DNA from: Verrucomicrobiota bacterium
GTDB lineage: Bacteria; Verrucomicrobiota; Verrucomicrobiia; JADLBR01
DNA: 64,000 bases
Direction of reading: 5' to 3'
Assembly (NCBI GenBank): GCA_029560585.1
Contig: JAKQKQ010000259.1
Location: 62,001-126,000, forward strand
Shown: positions 49,903 to 56,378 of the stretch, one piece after another
Numbering within the stretch: the first letter of the stretch is position 1
How the letters are laid out: every line of letters starts with the position of its first letter
Program-made: the position numbers and the translations under genes
The notes under the pieces: model-generated
What the model saw: the letters and a program-made list of their open reading frames with translations, nothing else
Databases searched by the model: none
What the model was told of the DNA's origin: nothing

Positions 49903-50379
49903 TCAGAGTCCCTTCAGGGAAGCCTGGATCTTCGAGAAGTCCGGGAGCTCCTTAGGTGTAGGAGTTTGCTCCGCGTATCGGATAATGCCCTGCTTGTCGA
50001 TGACGAAGGCGGCGCGGGCCGCTGTGGAACCGAAGCCGAGGAGGTCGTCGAGCAGGACGCCATAGGCGGCGGCCGTCTTCTTGTTGAGGTCGCTGAGCAG
50101 GGGGATGCGGATTTTTTCCTTCTGTGCCCAGGCCTCTTGTGCGAATGGGCTGTCCACGCTGATGCCGTAGACGGTCGCGCTGAGGTCCTCATAGGCCTTG
50201 ATGCCCTGGGAAATCTCGCACATCTCATTGGTGCAAACGCTGGTGAAGGCGAGCGGGAAGAAGAGCAAGACCGTGTTTCTCTTGCCGAAGTTGTCGCTGA
50301 GCTTGATTTCCTTAACGCCTTCGGCGTCCTTGGATTTAAGCGCAAAATCGGGTGCTTTAGTTCCTACGGCGATGGCCAT
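49903..50379 (-). CDS. Peroxiredoxin (AhpC/TSA, AhpE-like)
   Basis: A 158-residue thiol peroxidase that reduces hydrogen peroxide or organic peroxides in the cytoplasm. The peroxidatic site is FFPLAFTSVCTNEMC: the Cys in SVCT is peroxidatic and a second Cys lies five residues on, as in the AhpE/BCP-like group. APDFALKSKD opens the thioredoxin fold. No signal peptide. An excellent AAGGAGG lies on the minus strand before the ATG. Convergent with the beta-helix gene, with six bases between stops. Confidence 0.92.
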   Translation of the reverse strand: MAIAVGTKAPDFALKSKDAEGVKEIKLSDNFGKRNTVLLFFPLAFTSVCTNEMCEISQGIKAYEDLSATVYGISVDSPFAQEAWAQKEKIRIPLLSDLNKKTAAAYGVLLDDLLGFGSTAARAAFVIDKQGIIRYAEQTPTPKELPDFSKIQASLKGL

Positions 50380-50508
50380 GGTGGACCTCCTTCTTGGTTA
50401 GTAGTGGGAATTTTGGCGCATCCCGAGCGAGCCGCAAGTCGAATTCGTGGTAGGAACGCCATGGTGCGTTCGTGGTGCTAAACCAGAAAGGACTCGGGAT
50501 ATCCCGCT

Positions 50509-50734
50509 AGCCCGGATATTTCACAGCCTGTTGGCTGTGAAATATCCGGGCTCTGGGAAAATCGCGCCATGAAAGCCATTTATTGGGAGAGGTCAGGCAA
50601 AGTCTGGGATTTTCCGTAGTCGCACAGTGTGGTTCGCGGATCGGTGGCCCCAGACCGTCCAAAATCGCGTTTTTCGGAGCGCGGTTTTCCTTTGAGCCTG
50701 CATGTTTCACGCGGAAGCGTGAAACATGCAGGCT
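50509..50734 (-). repeat. Composite hairpin repeat, family A, copy 2 (inverted)
   Basis: A 20-bp perfect hairpin (50509-50552, loop TGTT), a core of about 140 bases and an 18-bp perfect hairpin (50695-50734, loop GGAA). The core runs in the opposite sense to copy 1 at 1904-2123. Its ends, GGAAAATCGCGC (50556-50567) and GCGCGGTTTTCC (50679-50690), again pair, with one G-T. The 18-bp hairpin differs from copy 1 by one compensated base pair (A-T to G-C). The gap 50380-50840 otherwise shows no gene. Confidence 0.85.
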
Positions 50735-50840
50735 AAGCCCCGCCCTGTGCCCGCGAACACCGCCTGGAGTTTCTGCCTACTTCTGGCGGAGGTTCGCGAA
50801 TCGTCCGCGGGCCCACCGAGACGCGACAGCGGGGTCTGGC

Positions 50841-51524
50841 TCAATCGCATTTGGACGAGCAAGGGTGCCCCGGCCACCCAGGTTTTGGGGGTGCCGTCCT
50901 TACGGTGTCTCTCTGGAGCTCCCCAACGAGATCGCGGATATGGCTTCTGGCCGCTGATGCGATTTCCGCTGCGGCTATGGGCTCGTCGCAACCCCTCAGG
51001 ATTCGATGTCCCTCCCGATTGGTATTCTCGATGACTTGGCGCTCCAGCCCGTGGAGCAATGGCCTCAATCTAGCCAATGCCTTCTTTAATTTCATGCGGG
51101 CCGTGCGCCGATTGTCCAGGGCCTCTCGGTAGGCAGTGGCTTTTTCCTGACTGATCGCGCGGCCGCCTTTTCTGATGAAGTCCGCGTGCGCCATGGCGTT
51201 TTCCTTCGCTTTCGCGGCTGCCTCGATGTCGACCTTGAGGGCGTTGATGGATTTCTCGCTCGGGTGGTCTTTGGCTTGCTCGTACTCCAGTTCGGCTTGG
51301 AGGTCGTCGATTTTGCGCCCGATGGCATCCAGCTTGTCCTCCGCGTCCTTGAGCGTTCGCCAGGGGATATTGTTCCGGGCGTCCGATTCTGCTGCCTGGA
51401 CTTCCCGAATAGCCTTTTCAACGTCCTCCTGCGGGTGGCCAGCAGGGCACGGCTGGGGACCGGCGGCGGCCAGCAGGATCGAAAGTGCGCTCATCGACGC
51501 GAACCTTGAGATTTTGATTTTCAC
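50841..51524 (-). CDS. Exported coiled-coil protein, unknown
   Basis: About 227 residues. A hydrophobic leader (ASMSALSILLAAAGPQPCPA) suggests export; the ...AGPQPC end is a weak lipobox. The middle is strongly helical and charged (about residues 40-180) with heptad-like runs such as DKLDAIGRKIDDLQAELEYE, indicating a coiled coil. No family is recognised. The start is GTG at 51524 because AAAGGAG lies six bases upstream on the minus strand; the ATG at 51494 is an alternative. Confidence 0.7.
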   Translation of the reverse strand: MKIKISRFASMSALSILLAAAGPQPCPAGHPQEDVEKAIREVQAAESDARNNIPWRTLKDAEDKLDAIGRKIDDLQAELEYEQAKDHPSEKSINALKVDIEAAAKAKENAMAHADFIRKGGRAISQEKATAYREALDNRRTARMKLKKALARLRPLLHGLERQVIENTNREGHRILRGCDEPIAAAEIASAARSHIRDLVGELQRDTVRTAPPKPGWPGHPCSSKCD

Positions 51525-51610
51525 AACACGACTCCTTTCCCTTCTTTCACCGCGAGGATCTGGTGCGATGCGCCGCAGAATCTCGCGGTCGAGGAACACC
51601 TTATTTGTAC

Positions 51611-51745: not shown

Positions 51746-52318
51746 TTATGCCGTTATCTTGAGGGTTTGGAGGGTCTCTTGCTGGATAGCCTGGATATCG
51801 CGTTTGAGGCTATGTTTTGTGGCGGAATCCATCCGATCGATGAAGAGGATGCCTTTGAGGTGATCGACCTCGTGCTGGATCGCGCGAGCCAGGAGGCCCT
51901 CGCATTCGAATTCGATGGGCTGGCCATCGATGCCGAGGGCCTTGACCCTGCAATGGGCGGGGCGACGGATATCGGCGTTGAGTTCTGGGAAGCTGAGGCA
52001 ACCCTCGGTGCCGAGGACTTTTTCGCGACCCAGATGCAGTTCCGGGTTGCAGAGGACCATGGGCGCGTATTTGGCGAGGTCACATTCTTTGCCGTCGATC
52101 CAGAGTTTGGAGGGGCGCTCCTCGGAGTCGTGGACCTCGAGCACGCAGAGTTGCAGGGGTTTGGCGACCTGCTGTGCGGCGAGGCCGACGCCCTCGGCGT
52201 GGCGCATGGTTTCGATCATGTCGTTGGCGAGGCGGCGAATCTCGGGCGTGATGGATGCGATCTGGGCGCCGGGGGTTCGGAGGGCGGGGTGACCGTATTT
52301 GACAATTTCGAGGATCAT
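51746..52318 (-). CDS. def: Peptide deformylase
   Basis: A 190-residue Fe/Zn hydrolase that removes the formyl group from nascent proteins. All three motifs are present: GVGLAAQQV, EGCLSFPE and QHEVDHLKG, holding the metal-binding Cys and two His. The family-normal length is reached from ATG 52318, which lies inside a longer frame reaching 52381; the internal ATG reads MILEIVKYG, a usual Def start. It is divergent from the NRPS gene. Confidence 0.96.
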   Translation of the reverse strand: MILEIVKYGHPALRTPGAQIASITPEIRRLANDMIETMRHAEGVGLAAQQVAKPLQLCVLEVHDSEERPSKLWIDGKECDLAKYAPMVLCNPELHLGREKVLGTEGCLSFPELNADIRRPAHCRVKALGIDGQPIEFECEGLLARAIQHEVDHLKGILFIDRMDSATKHSLKRDIQAIQQETLQTLKITA

Positions 52319-52436
52319 GATGTTGCCCAAAGATAGGGCGAACGGGGGCGCGGGGCAAGGGTCCGAGTCGTTGCCGATCACACGGGTGCGGGATCACGCT
52401 CGACCGCCGACGGCCGGCGATGGCATCGTTTGGGGG

Positions 52437-55400
52437 ATGGATCGGATGGTCGCAGGGGGCCTGGAGCCAGGGATAGGGATGCTGCCAGGGCAGGAGATGA
52501 TGTGGCGATTCTGCCGGGTGCACCCCGATGTGCCGGCGTTGAATCTGGCGTGGCGTTTGCACTTGCCGGACGGCGTGTGCCCCGGCGCCCTGCTTCGAGT
52601 GGCGCAGGACGTGGTGGGATCGCATGATGCGCTGCGCGTGGTCTGTGCGGACGGAGACGGGCGGGTGCGGCAGCGTTTCCTGACAGAGGCGCGGGTGGAC
52701 GTACCAATGGTGGGGGCACCGGGATTGGACGGGGATGCATTCCGCGAATGGCTGGATGGGGTGGGCCGGGATTTCTGTGCCTGGCCATATGTGCCGGGGC
52801 AAGGCCCACTGGTGCGGTTCCTGGGCGTGCTGAGCGCCGGTCGGCCGAGCCATCTGTTTTTCGGTGCGCACCATCTTGTCTGCGATGGTCCTTCCTGGTT
52901 GTCGTTGGCAACCGAGATCGTCCAACGTCTCCAGGGACGGGCGATGGGGCGGGGACCATCATTTCGGGATTTTTGCGCGGGCGAGCACGAGTGGCTGAAA
53001 AGTTCGGAGGCTTCGGCGCACGCGACATTTTGGGAAGGTTGCCTGGGCGAGATCGCGGCCATCCAGGGTGGGCGGCCGAGAAGGGTGACCGACGGGGCAA
53101 ATGGCTTTGGGGTTCTTCGTGCGGCGATGGTTCTCCCGGCGGAGGTGATTGCCGCCCTGGCGGAGCGGTGTCGGGTTTTGGGCACGACGCGCTTCCGGCT
53201 GATGATGGCGGCCTGCCTCCGGTATTTCGGCGAACGCGATGGGTGGGACGAGTTCGTGCTGGGAACGACTTTGGCCGCCCGGGGCACCTGGGTGCCTGAA
53301 GGCCTCGTGGGTGCGGTGGGCAATCGCGTGTGGCTGCCATTCCGGGCGATGTCGTCGGGTGATTGGACGGAAGCGGTGCACGAGGGGGTGGATGCGGCGA
53401 TTCGGCACTCGCGATATCCGTTTGCTGCTGCACTGACGGGGTATGCCGGGGGTCTCGGGGCGCACGTCTTGGGTGGGTGGCGCGTGAGTTTCAACCAGCT
53501 CCCGGGGCGGCGGCGTGGGCCGGAACATCCAGCGGATGTGATCTTCAAGCGCATCTTTGCCGACTCCTGCGTCGATGACCTGGCCCTGTATGTTTCGCCT
53601 GGCGAAACGGGATGCGAAGTGTCGTGCCTGTCGCGGATTAGGACGGTGGCACCCGAGGACATTCTGGAGGGTTTTTGTGATTCGCTGAAAGGCCTGTTGG
53701 CGGGGGCGTCGGGTGGGCGGGGCGGCGGCGCGCGCGTGTCTGGGGGGCGTCCGGTGGCCGGGATGTCCGCGCGGGCGGATTTGGAACGATCGTTGTGTGA
53801 TGCGTTTGCTTCCGTCGTGGCGCGGGCGCCCGATCGGCCCGCGGTAAGGGCGGGCGGGGATACTTGGACCTATGGCGAGATCGATCGCCTGTCGGATGGG
53901 GTTGCTCGGCGCTTGCGGAAGCGAGGCTCGTCTGCGGATGGTCGGGCGGCGTTGCTTTTCGAAGCCGGCCCTTTGCCGATCATCTGTATGCTGGGTGTGC
54001 TGAAGGCGGGATGGGCGTATGTGCCGATGGACGCTTCGTGGCCCGCCCGTCGGGTGCGGGGCGTGTTGGAAGATTCGGAATGCCATGTGCTGTTGGCATC
54101 TCGCGCGATGATTGATCGGATCGAGTTGCCGCCCGGCTGCGCCGTCGATGCACTCGACATCGGGGAACTCGGGCCGTGTTCCGGGGGAGGGGATTCAGGC
54201 TCTTCTCGGGTGGCACCCGACGCGATCGCCTACGTGCTTTACACCTCGGGATCGACCGGGCGACCCAAAGGCGTCGTCCAGAACCACCGGAATGTCCTTT
54301 ATCACGCATTGACCTACTCCGCCTCTTTGAGTCTGTCGGAGGAGGATCGCGTGAGTCTTCTGGCGCCCGTGGCCTTCGACGCTGCGGTCATGGATATTTT
54401 TGGCGCGCTCTTCAGCGGGGCGACGCTTTGCCTCTGGGATGTGCGCGCGCGGGGTCTGGCAGGCTTGGCGGAATGGGTGGGCGAGGCAGGCATCAGCGTC
54501 CTGCATTTGACGCCGTCCCTTTTCCGGGCTCTCACCGATCTGGCGCCAGAACCGGCGGTGTTCCGATCGGTGCGTGTGGTCGTCCTCGGGGGGGAGGAGG
54601 TCACGGCAGAGGATACTGGCAGGTTCTTGCGCTGGATGGGGGAATCTTGCGCGCTGGCGAATGGATATGGTCCGAGCGAGTCCACGTTGGCGACGCAATA
54701 CTGGATGACGCGGCAAACGGTCCCGCGGCGGGGGTCGGCCCCCATCGGGTATCCCGTAGCGGGAACGGGGGTGGTGCTGTTGGGCAAAGATGGCGCGGAG
54801 ACCAGTGGTGAGGGCGAGATCGGAATCTTCGGGGAGCATGTGGCGCTGGGCTACCGAAATCGGGAGGATCTGACGCGCCAGGTTTTCTCGCCAATGCCTG
54901 GGCCAGGGATGCGGCGTCTGTATCGCACGGGGGACATTGGAAGGCGAGATTCCGAAGGGCGCCTCTGGTTTGTGGGCCGGCGCGAAGGATTCCTGAAGAT
55001 CCGCGGTTTGCGGATAGAGACCGGGGAGATCGAGTCTGTGATTCGGGGGCATCCGGGCGTTGCCGATGCGACGGTTATCGGTGTTCCGCGTGGGAAATCG
55101 GGGTACTGCCTCGTCGCCTTCTGGGTATCAGTGGAAGGCGGGAGCGTGACGGACGGCGAACTGCGCGGCTATGTCCGAGAACGTCTGCCATCTTGGATGG
55201 TGCCGGCGCGGTGGGCGAGGGTCGAGGCGCTTCCCCTGACAGCCAATGGCAAGAGGGATCGCAATGCCCTTGCGGATAGGGCGCAGGATGTTGTTAGGCA
55301 GAAGGCCGCACCGCGGAACGATGGCGAGAGGCTCGTGGTCCGGTTGATCGAGGAGACGCTCGGGATTCAAGGCGTCGGCGCGCAAGAGGATTTCATTTCG

Positions 55401-56378
55401 CTTGGGGGCGACTCCCTGGGCGCCCTGCAATTGCTCGCGCGCATCGAGCGGGAGACAGGCCGCGTGATGCCGCCGTCGCTCGCGGCGGAAGATTTCACCG
55501 CGAACTCGATAGCCGGCATACTCGAGGCAGGCGTTTCGGGCGTACGGGGATGGAGCGTGCTGCGGGAAGGCGAGCGCGGGGCGCCGATATTCATGGTGCC
55601 TGGACATGGCGGGGGTTCCGGCTGTTATCTGGAGCTGGCGCGGCTGCTCCAGGTTGATAGCGCGGTCATTGGCCTGCGGCTTCGAGGTCTGGATGACCGG
55701 TGTTTGCCCGATGAATCGTTCGAGGTGATGGGGGTGCATCTGGCGGATGAAATTAGGGCGGTCCAACCGGCCGGACCGTACCAGCTCGTCGGTTATTCCT
55801 TGGGGGGCATGCTGGCTTTCGAGGTGGCGCGGCAATTGCAGGCTTCGGGCGGATCGATCGGTGCGATATGCGTTCTCGACACCTATCCGCTGAACCCGAT
55901 GACCTTCTTGCCGTTCGAAGTATGGTGCCGCCGGTGGTGGGCGCGGATGCGGGTGCACTGGCGCAATGCCAGTGCGCGAGCCCCCCGGGGCTTTATCCGG
56001 TATTTTGGCGAGAGGTTGTTCGGCTATTGGCACAATCTGATGCGGATACGGAGGGGGGCGCCACTGTCGCCAACCGTGGCAATGCCGGACGCGGTGCCTT
56101 CGGGCATGGGCAGATTCAATCAGGCGTTTGTCCGGGCACGCTGGCGCTATCGTCCCAGGCCGTGTGATGTCGCGGTCACGATCTTCCGGACGCCGGCGTT
56201 TGGGACGATCAACATGCATGATCCAATTGACGATTGGCGCCGTCTGGCGCGCGGGGGCGTCGTCGTGGTTGATGTCCCGGGCGAGCACTTTGGGCTTCTG
56301 GAACTGCCCGCGGTGCAGGTGTTGGCAGAGCGCCTGACCGACCATCTCCGGGAGACGATGCGGTCGCGGCCAAGATGA
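52437..56378 (+). CDS. Single-module non-ribosomal peptide synthetase (C-A-T-TE)
   Basis: About 1313 residues. The condensation domain (about 15-430) has the active HHLVCDG. The adenylation domain (about 450-950) has LYTSGSTGRPKGVV (A3), NGYGPSEST (A5), YRTGDIGRRDSEG (A7), GRREGFLKIRGLR (A8) and LPLTANGKRDRNAL (A10). The carrier domain has DFISLGGDSLGALQLL (phosphopantetheine Ser, about residue 990), and the thioesterase has GYSLGGMLAFEVA (about 1118). Residues inferred for the substrate pocket read about D-A-M-H-V-G-G-L-A-K, which I do not match to a known amino acid. No MbtH, phosphopantetheinyl transferase, transporter or second module lies in the window. The start is the ATG at 52437; a frame extends upstream to 52299, overlapping the deformylase start. 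Confidence 0.9.
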   Translation: MDRMVAGGLEPGIGMLPGQEMMWRFCRVHPDVPALNLAWRLHLPDGVCPGALLRVAQDVVGSHDALRVVCADGDGRVRQRFLTEARVDVPMVGAPGLDGDAFREWLDGVGRDFCAWPYVPGQGPLVRFLGVLSAGRPSHLFFGAHHLVCDGPSWLSLATEIVQRLQGRAMGRGPSFRDFCAGEHEWLKSSEASAHATFWEGCLGEIAAIQGGRPRRVTDGANGFGVLRAAMVLPAEVIAALAERCRVLGTTRFRLMMAACLRYFGERDGWDEFVLGTTLAARGTWVPEGLVGAVGNRVWLPFRAMSSGDWTEAVHEGVDAAIRHSRYPFAAALTGYAGGLGAHVLGGWRVSFNQLPGRRRGPEHPADVIFKRIFADSCVDDLALYVSPGETGCEVSCLSRIRTVAPEDILEGFCDSLKGLLAGASGGRGGGARVSGGRPVAGMSARADLERSLCDAFASVVARAPDRPAVRAGGDTWTYGEIDRLSDGVARRLRKRGSSADGRAALLFEAGPLPIICMLGVLKAGWAYVPMDASWPARRVRGVLEDSECHVLLASRAMIDRIELPPGCAVDALDIGELGPCSGGGDSGSSRVAPDAIAYVLYTSGSTGRPKGVVQNHRNVLYHALTYSASLSLSEEDRVSLLAPVAFDAAVMDIFGALFSGATLCLWDVRARGLAGLAEWVGEAGISVLHLTPSLFRALTDLAPEPAVFRSVRVVVLGGEEVTAEDTGRFLRWMGESCALANGYGPSESTLATQYWMTRQTVPRRGSAPIGYPVAGTGVVLLGKDGAETSGEGEIGIFGEHVALGYRNREDLTRQVFSPMPGPGMRRLYRTGDIGRRDSEGRLWFVGRREGFLKIRGLRIETGEIESVIRGHPGVADATVIGVPRGKSGYCLVAFWVSVEGGSVTDGELRGYVRERLPSWMVPARWARVEALPLTANGKRDRNALADRAQDVVRQKAAPRNDGERLVVRLIEETLGIQGVGAQEDFISLGGDSLGALQLLARIERETGRVMPPSLAAEDFTANSIAGILEAGVSGVRGWSVLREGERGAPIFMVPGHGGGSGCYLELARLLQVDSAVIGLRLRGLDDRCLPDESFEVMGVHLADEIRAVQPAGPYQLVGYSLGGMLAFEVARQLQASGGSIGAICVLDTYPLNPMTFLPFEVWCRRWWARMRVHWRNASARAPRGFIRYFGERLFGYWHNLMRIRRGAPLSPTVAMPDAVPSGMGRFNQAFVRARWRYRPRPCDVAVTIFRTPAFGTINMHDPIDDWRRLARGGVVVVDVPGEHFGLLELPAVQVLAERLTDHLRETMRSRPR

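Follow-up and report, generated by a model that had tools for sequence, protein, structure and literature searches.

Within a 64,000-nucleotide stretch of a Verrucomicrobiota contig (the window), one gene encodes an intact, solitary NRPS module with the domain order C-A-T-TE. The gene is real, and its preliminary description was accurate. Its adenylation pocket recurs in other bacteria. We give an even chance to the reading in which this module modifies one amino acid, first by N-acylation and then by release through the thioesterase.

The synthetase

The reading frame is open throughout from 52299 to 56378 (+). Translation probably begins at the ATG at 52437; an alternative is the ATG at 52446, with GGGGG nine bases before it. 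Pfam places five matches in order: Condensation (E 5e-19), AMP-binding (4e-69), AMP-binding_C, PP-binding, and Thioesterase (Table 1). The A domain retains the motif YTSGSTGRPKG along with K985, and catalytic residues are present in all four domains. The original claim of a single module with complete active sites is thereby borne out: ORF, Pfam, and alignments agree on one intact C-A-T-TE protein with every catalytic residue in place. A search of solved structures returned generic NRPS relatives only.

Table 1. Features of the synthetase gene and its upstream flank (residue numbers are counted from the ORF start at 52299, not from the ATG at 52437)
Feature	Position	Strand	Basis
def, peptide deformylase; neighbour, outside the system; syntenic in congener G002	51746..52318	-	Pfam; 78% nucleotide identity with G002
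Intergenic gap of 118 bp that separates def from the divergent NRPS gene	52319..52436	.	Sequence
NRPS gene, single complete module C-A-T-TE, 1,313 aa	52437..56378	+	ORF and Pfam domains
Condensation domain, very divergent; active site HHLVCDG (H191, H192, D196) at 52869-52889	52467..53753	+	Pfam Condensation 63-375; catalytic columns kept
Adenylation domain and C-terminal subdomain	53790..55298	+	Pfam AMP-binding, AMP-binding_C; TIGR01733 331 bits (cut-off 317)
Nine of ten pocket residues: D694, A695, M698, H736, V762, G764, G789, L797, A798	54378..54692	+	MAFFT alignment to GrsA and 100+ A domains
Tenth pocket residue, K985	55251-55253	+	MAFFT alignment to GrsA
Carrier (T) domain, LGGDSL; phosphopantetheine serine S1039 at 55413-55415	55332..55514	+	Pfam PP-binding
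Type I thioesterase domain; Ser1167 (GYSLGG), Asp1194, His1330	55563..56363	+	Pfam Thioesterase; triad columns conserved

The C domain sits on an end branch of 2.81 (median 0.51), has no supported kin, and keeps 36/68 conserved columns (53%, against a median of 82%) with its active site intact. Similarly low scores (0.55-0.56) are found for the C domain of EntF and for the N-terminal C domain of a Mycetohabitans rhizoxinica NRPS. The low score hints, weakly, at a donor other than a peptidyl carrier; epimerase-like domains also score low. Among starter domains the C domain received no supported placement, its branch being too long and the tree carrying no labelled subtypes. The TE domain has no specific kin, and its triad columns are conserved. 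By these comparisons the protein looks like a mosaic, with traceable relatives for the A domain only.

Locus and lineage

By layout, the gene forms its own transcription unit: divergent from def, and convergent with a gene for a metallo-beta-lactamase-fold hydrolase (from 56500, -). A scan of the 118-bp gap for sigma-70-like promoters gave no match. The surrounding genes have housekeeping or carbohydrate functions (RNase R, peroxiredoxin, GH123-like, sulfatase, and cysS), with an iron-repressor/FeoB pair farther off. ORF layout, Pfam, and HMM scans of the flanks uphold the reported isolation between def and the hydrolase gene, and likewise no MbtH, transporter, or tailoring gene lies near. HMMs for the C, A, T, and TE domains, run over C213:22001-62000 and C213:119001-157440 of the same contig, detected no further NRPS domain, and the genome-wide C-domain search took in the remainder; a larger NRPS cluster just outside the window, named beforehand as refuting, was looked for in this way and not found. 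No MbtH above cut-off turned up in the genome; the five comparison genomes lack it as well, which makes the absence uninformative.

The RNase R-orf-def block is also present in a congener (G002), with 78% of its nucleotides identical. Conservation ends at the start codon of def, and the congener's contig has no significant NRPS match in the 413 bp that lie upstream of this gene. Because the block on the NRPS contig matches that of the congener, the contig is native, and contamination is ruled out. On this comparison the NRPS gene would be either a gain in the query lineage or a loss in the congener. Separately, the congener's block, though syntenic in other respects, lacks the peroxiredoxin and the 252-aa ORF that the window has between a 308-aa ORF and def (49903-51599).

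No orthologue above 39% identity was found in samples of 388 genomes of the phylum and 384 of the class, nor was a close one found in plasmids or in the species genome collection. The common terminal modules with the pocket DALWLGGTFK (which we take to be valine-type) match the query along its full length, and descent from them was considered for that reason. It was rejected, since the A domain of the query falls outside their clade. C-A-T-TE proteins of class relatives that seemed, from their size, to stand alone are mostly terminal modules of PKS-NRPS or NRPS clusters. One exception, L075:8624-12532 (-), has no NRPS neighbour in 20 kb; its pocket is DAFWLGGTFK, valine-type, and its host genome has other NRPS genes.

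The gene might be a relict, acquired without its partner genes and an Sfp-type transferase or since bereft of them, whose product is no longer made. Its codon usage is the most atypical, and its GC3 the lowest, among the 16 window genes, the deviation being mild; the gene is absent beside def in the congener; the C domain retains just the 36 conserved columns; and no Sfp-type enzyme was found. Yet the 1,313-codon frame is intact with all catalytic residues in four domains, and the pocket is kept at nine of ten positions relative to proteins only 33-38% identical overall. Inactivity is, on balance, improbable.

A recurring adenylation pocket

Realignment to GrsA with MAFFT gives the pocket as DAMHVGGLAK, identical to the earlier reading by hand. 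In the same alignment the control, EntF, reads DVWHFSLVDK, a serine code. A clear known specificity code had been named in advance as contrary evidence; none was found, and the open-access literature yielded no published specificity for DAMHVGGLAK. The pocket is still unmatched among open-access papers, but it is not a one-off, since three further gene contexts carry DAMHVGG[L/I][A/V]K: two genomes of the same class (G641 and its sister genome G665) and an NRPS-PKS of a Vibrio europaeus plasmid. The Vibrio context was recovered by tblastn with the A4-A5 stretch, and the G641 protein by the class search. The query belongs to this group by pocket identity (at least 9/10) and by its place in a supported A-domain clade. 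In a tree of 91 A domains, built by a quick method from members picked by similarity, the pocket-sharers and five domains that lack the amino-group aspartate form one clade (SH-aLRT 99).

The pocket-sharers are 33-38% identical to the query overall and about 40% across A4-A5, yet in each the pocket matches at 9/10 residues, so it is probably under constraint. By a rough figure, the chance of agreement at 7/8 or more positions (D235 and K517 set aside) is 0.2-2% per comparison. Such a pattern suggests that DAMHVGG[L/I][A/V]K may mark one substrate class. Most clade members have H736, a residue that may reflect clade membership and not specificity. Relative to DALWLGGTFK, the W to H and F to A changes would open the pocket, and the substrate is probably bulkier or more polar than valine.

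The five clade members without the aspartate (L133:3-2927 (+); L134:2557-4305 (+); L079:10916-13582 (-); L130:17188-19344 (+); and L131:7494-10013 (+)) have pockets that include SGSH, GASH, AGRF, and SGRH, and some occur in short A-T-TE proteins. They probably activate carboxylic acids rather than amino acids.

Partners, carriers, and donors in the genome

The assembly comprises 7.06 Mb in 336 contigs and is 95.7% complete; its fragmentation limits the certainty of any inventory. A whole-genome search for C domains found one protein, the query. Five PP-binding matches were found: the query, which is the only one of NRPS type, and four short stand-alone carriers. The suggestion in the preliminary description that a small peptide might be made with a second module elsewhere thus lacks support, the assembly holding one C domain and one NRPS-type carrier.

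Nine AMP-binding proteins are encoded, the query included. Four others are full-length: an acetate-CoA ligase, a benzoate-CoA-ligase-family protein, an MbcS-like acyl-CoA synthetase, and an acyl-ACP synthetase/acyltransferase. The remaining four are partial model matches only. Elsewhere, on contig C240, a run of genes at L110:11268-15273 (-) encodes 3-hydroxyacyl-CoA dehydrogenase, acyl carrier protein, acyl-CoA dehydrogenase, and FkbH-domain proteins beside a NeuD-type acetyltransferase. It resembles a hydroxy/methoxymalonyl-ACP cassette, and no PKS or NRPS domain occurs in the 40 kb read.

The sole phosphopantetheinyl transferase found is AcpS (133 aa), encoded directly behind a gene with a pdxJ-like start. 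The claim that no carrier-activating gene lies near is accurate for the window itself, but this housekeeping acpS stands 19 kb downstream of the synthetase gene, outside the window (C213:137572). An Sfp-type transferase was not found in the 95.7%-complete assembly. By the same search, all five NRPS-bearing comparison genomes, the congener among them, have AcpS and a second transferase, which in each lies on an NRPS-bearing contig.

What the module may do

In the reading to which we give an even chance, the A domain would activate one alpha-amino acid, whose amino group Asp694 would anchor, and would load its own carrier. Priming of that carrier would fall to AcpS, or to an Sfp-type enzyme encoded in the unassembled few percent of the genome. 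The C domain would then join a non-NRPS donor to the amino group, and the TE would free the N-acyl amino acid or a cyclised derivative (a small ring). Since the assembly holds no second NRPS carrier, the donor should come from CoA, an acyl carrier protein, or a second copy of the module itself; the first two sources, each delivering an acyl group, would be the simplest.

Several observations argue for N-acylation: the intact catalytic residues of all four domains; the single C domain and single NRPS carrier of the assembly; possible donor sources, in the form of acyl-CoA ligases, the acyl-ACP synthetase, and stand-alone carriers; the occurrence of the same pocket in V. europaeus at the position of an acylated residue, after an acyl-ligase-like domain and its carrier; and the existence of a stand-alone C-A-T-TE enzyme of known product, that for pyreudione (PMC8719888). 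Others count against it. With no Sfp-type transferase found, the carrier may be unprimed; the C domain, its branch too long, is not placed among starter domains; no orthologue was found for gauging selection; and the pocket-sharing module of G641 and G665 appears to have a different donor, a Leu-type A-T partner.

That last module also argues for a two-part pathway, in which the query would be a terminal module and the donor module and an Sfp gene would lie in the unassembled part of the genome. The closest pocket-sharing C-A-T-TE does work beside a Leu-type A-T protein and a P450, and about 4% of the genome may be absent. NRPS partners, however, are usually clustered; the assembled flanks, about 40 kb downstream and more than 50 kb upstream, show no other NRPS domain, and two independent genes would both have to be missing. 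We consider this very unlikely.

Alternatively, two copies of the same aminoacyl carrier might meet at the C domain, with the TE releasing a homodimer (a diketopiperazine or linear dipeptide). Self-condensation would make an outside donor unnecessary, in keeping with a genome that has a single carrier, and single-module NRPSs that couple two molecules of one amino acid occur in fungi (brasiliamide, as cited in PMC8658869). However, no bacterial C-A-T-TE precedent was found here, and carriers would have to be exchanged between proteins, a point on which the sequence is neutral. It is an unlikely outcome, in our estimation.

A broader proposal is one that we put forward tentatively and think doubtful. 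DAMHVGG[L/I][A/V]K, present in two phyla and three assembly-line contexts, might represent an unrecognised specificity class for an amino acid outside current codes, and AcpS alone might prime the carrier. The system would then be a minimal, self-sufficient NRPS that needs nothing beyond its one gene and housekeeping enzymes.

No NRPS system is simpler than a single-module synthetase, whose product can be read directly once its one gene is expressed. The substrate of the query would assign a pocket code for the prediction of clusters elsewhere, including the plasmid-borne Vibrio cluster. With the pocket shared across bacteria, these synthetases can be tested as a group. An intact NRPS accompanied by AcpS only is also a clean test case for AcpS priming of a peptidyl carrier.

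Comparison with known and related systems

The C-A-T-TE proteins of G641 and G665, which belong to another family of the same class, resemble the query in pocket (DAMHVGGIAK, the lysine by eye), in an A domain 38% identical, and in clade. Unlike the query, they stand in clusters beside a Leu-type A-T protein and a P450, and neither their C nor their TE domain shows a specific relationship to its counterpart in the query. The three-gene block, A-T / P450 / C-A-T-TE (L114:7349-14743 (-) and L132:7803-15395 (-)), is 81-96% identical between the two genomes (P450, 96%). The A-T pockets are DAWFLGNVVK and DAWALGNVVK, presumably Leu-type.

The V. europaeus plasmid pVEu encodes an NRPS-PKS module (L129; A domain at residue 1050) with the pocket DAMHVGGLVK, in the same clade. 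It follows an acyl-ligase-like domain with its carrier, as the first module. In contrast to the solitary query, it belongs to a multi-gene cluster (L129:6267-36420) with a penicillin acylase and a cyclic-peptide exporter. A search of open-access literature found no paper on this cluster.

The same class also has valine-type C-A-T-TE terminal modules (L069-L074 and others), which share domain order with the query and full-length similarity (28-31% identity). They differ in their pocket, in their own A-domain clade, and in clustering with PKS-NRPS genes, joined in some clusters by an Sfp-type gene. Family f5 shows a recurrent pair in several genomes (L069-L074): a PKS-NRPS of 2,400-2,600 aa is followed by the valine-type C-A-T-TE, in some cases with an adjacent PPTase-like gene.

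EntF, of enterobactin synthetase, has the same C-A-T-TE architecture and a similarly divergent C domain (0.55 of conserved columns, versus 0.53 for the query). Its N-terminal C domain takes a non-aminoacyl donor, and its partners are EntB/EntE, MbtH, and EntD. The query is not an EntF: it scores 274 bits on the NCBIfam EntF model (cut-off 2400), and its pocket differs from the serine code of EntF.

The query pocket is likewise not a proline code, which sets the query apart from the proline-using pyreudione synthetase. The latter enzyme, from Pseudomonas fluorescens HKI0770, is a stand-alone C-A-T-TE NRPS of known product (PMC8719888), and its substrate is L-proline (PMC7242659). Like it, the query is one gene and one module, C-A-T-TE, without a partner NRPS gene (PMC8719888). 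By this analogy the query would work as the pyreudione enzyme does, as a stand-alone C-A-T-TE, but would be another enzyme. A pyreudione-type enzyme pairs a fatty-acyl donor at its C domain with tetramic-ring closure by its TE. The kind is thus already known from the pyreudiones; new here are the orphan status, the recurring pocket, and a genome in which no Sfp-type enzyme was found.
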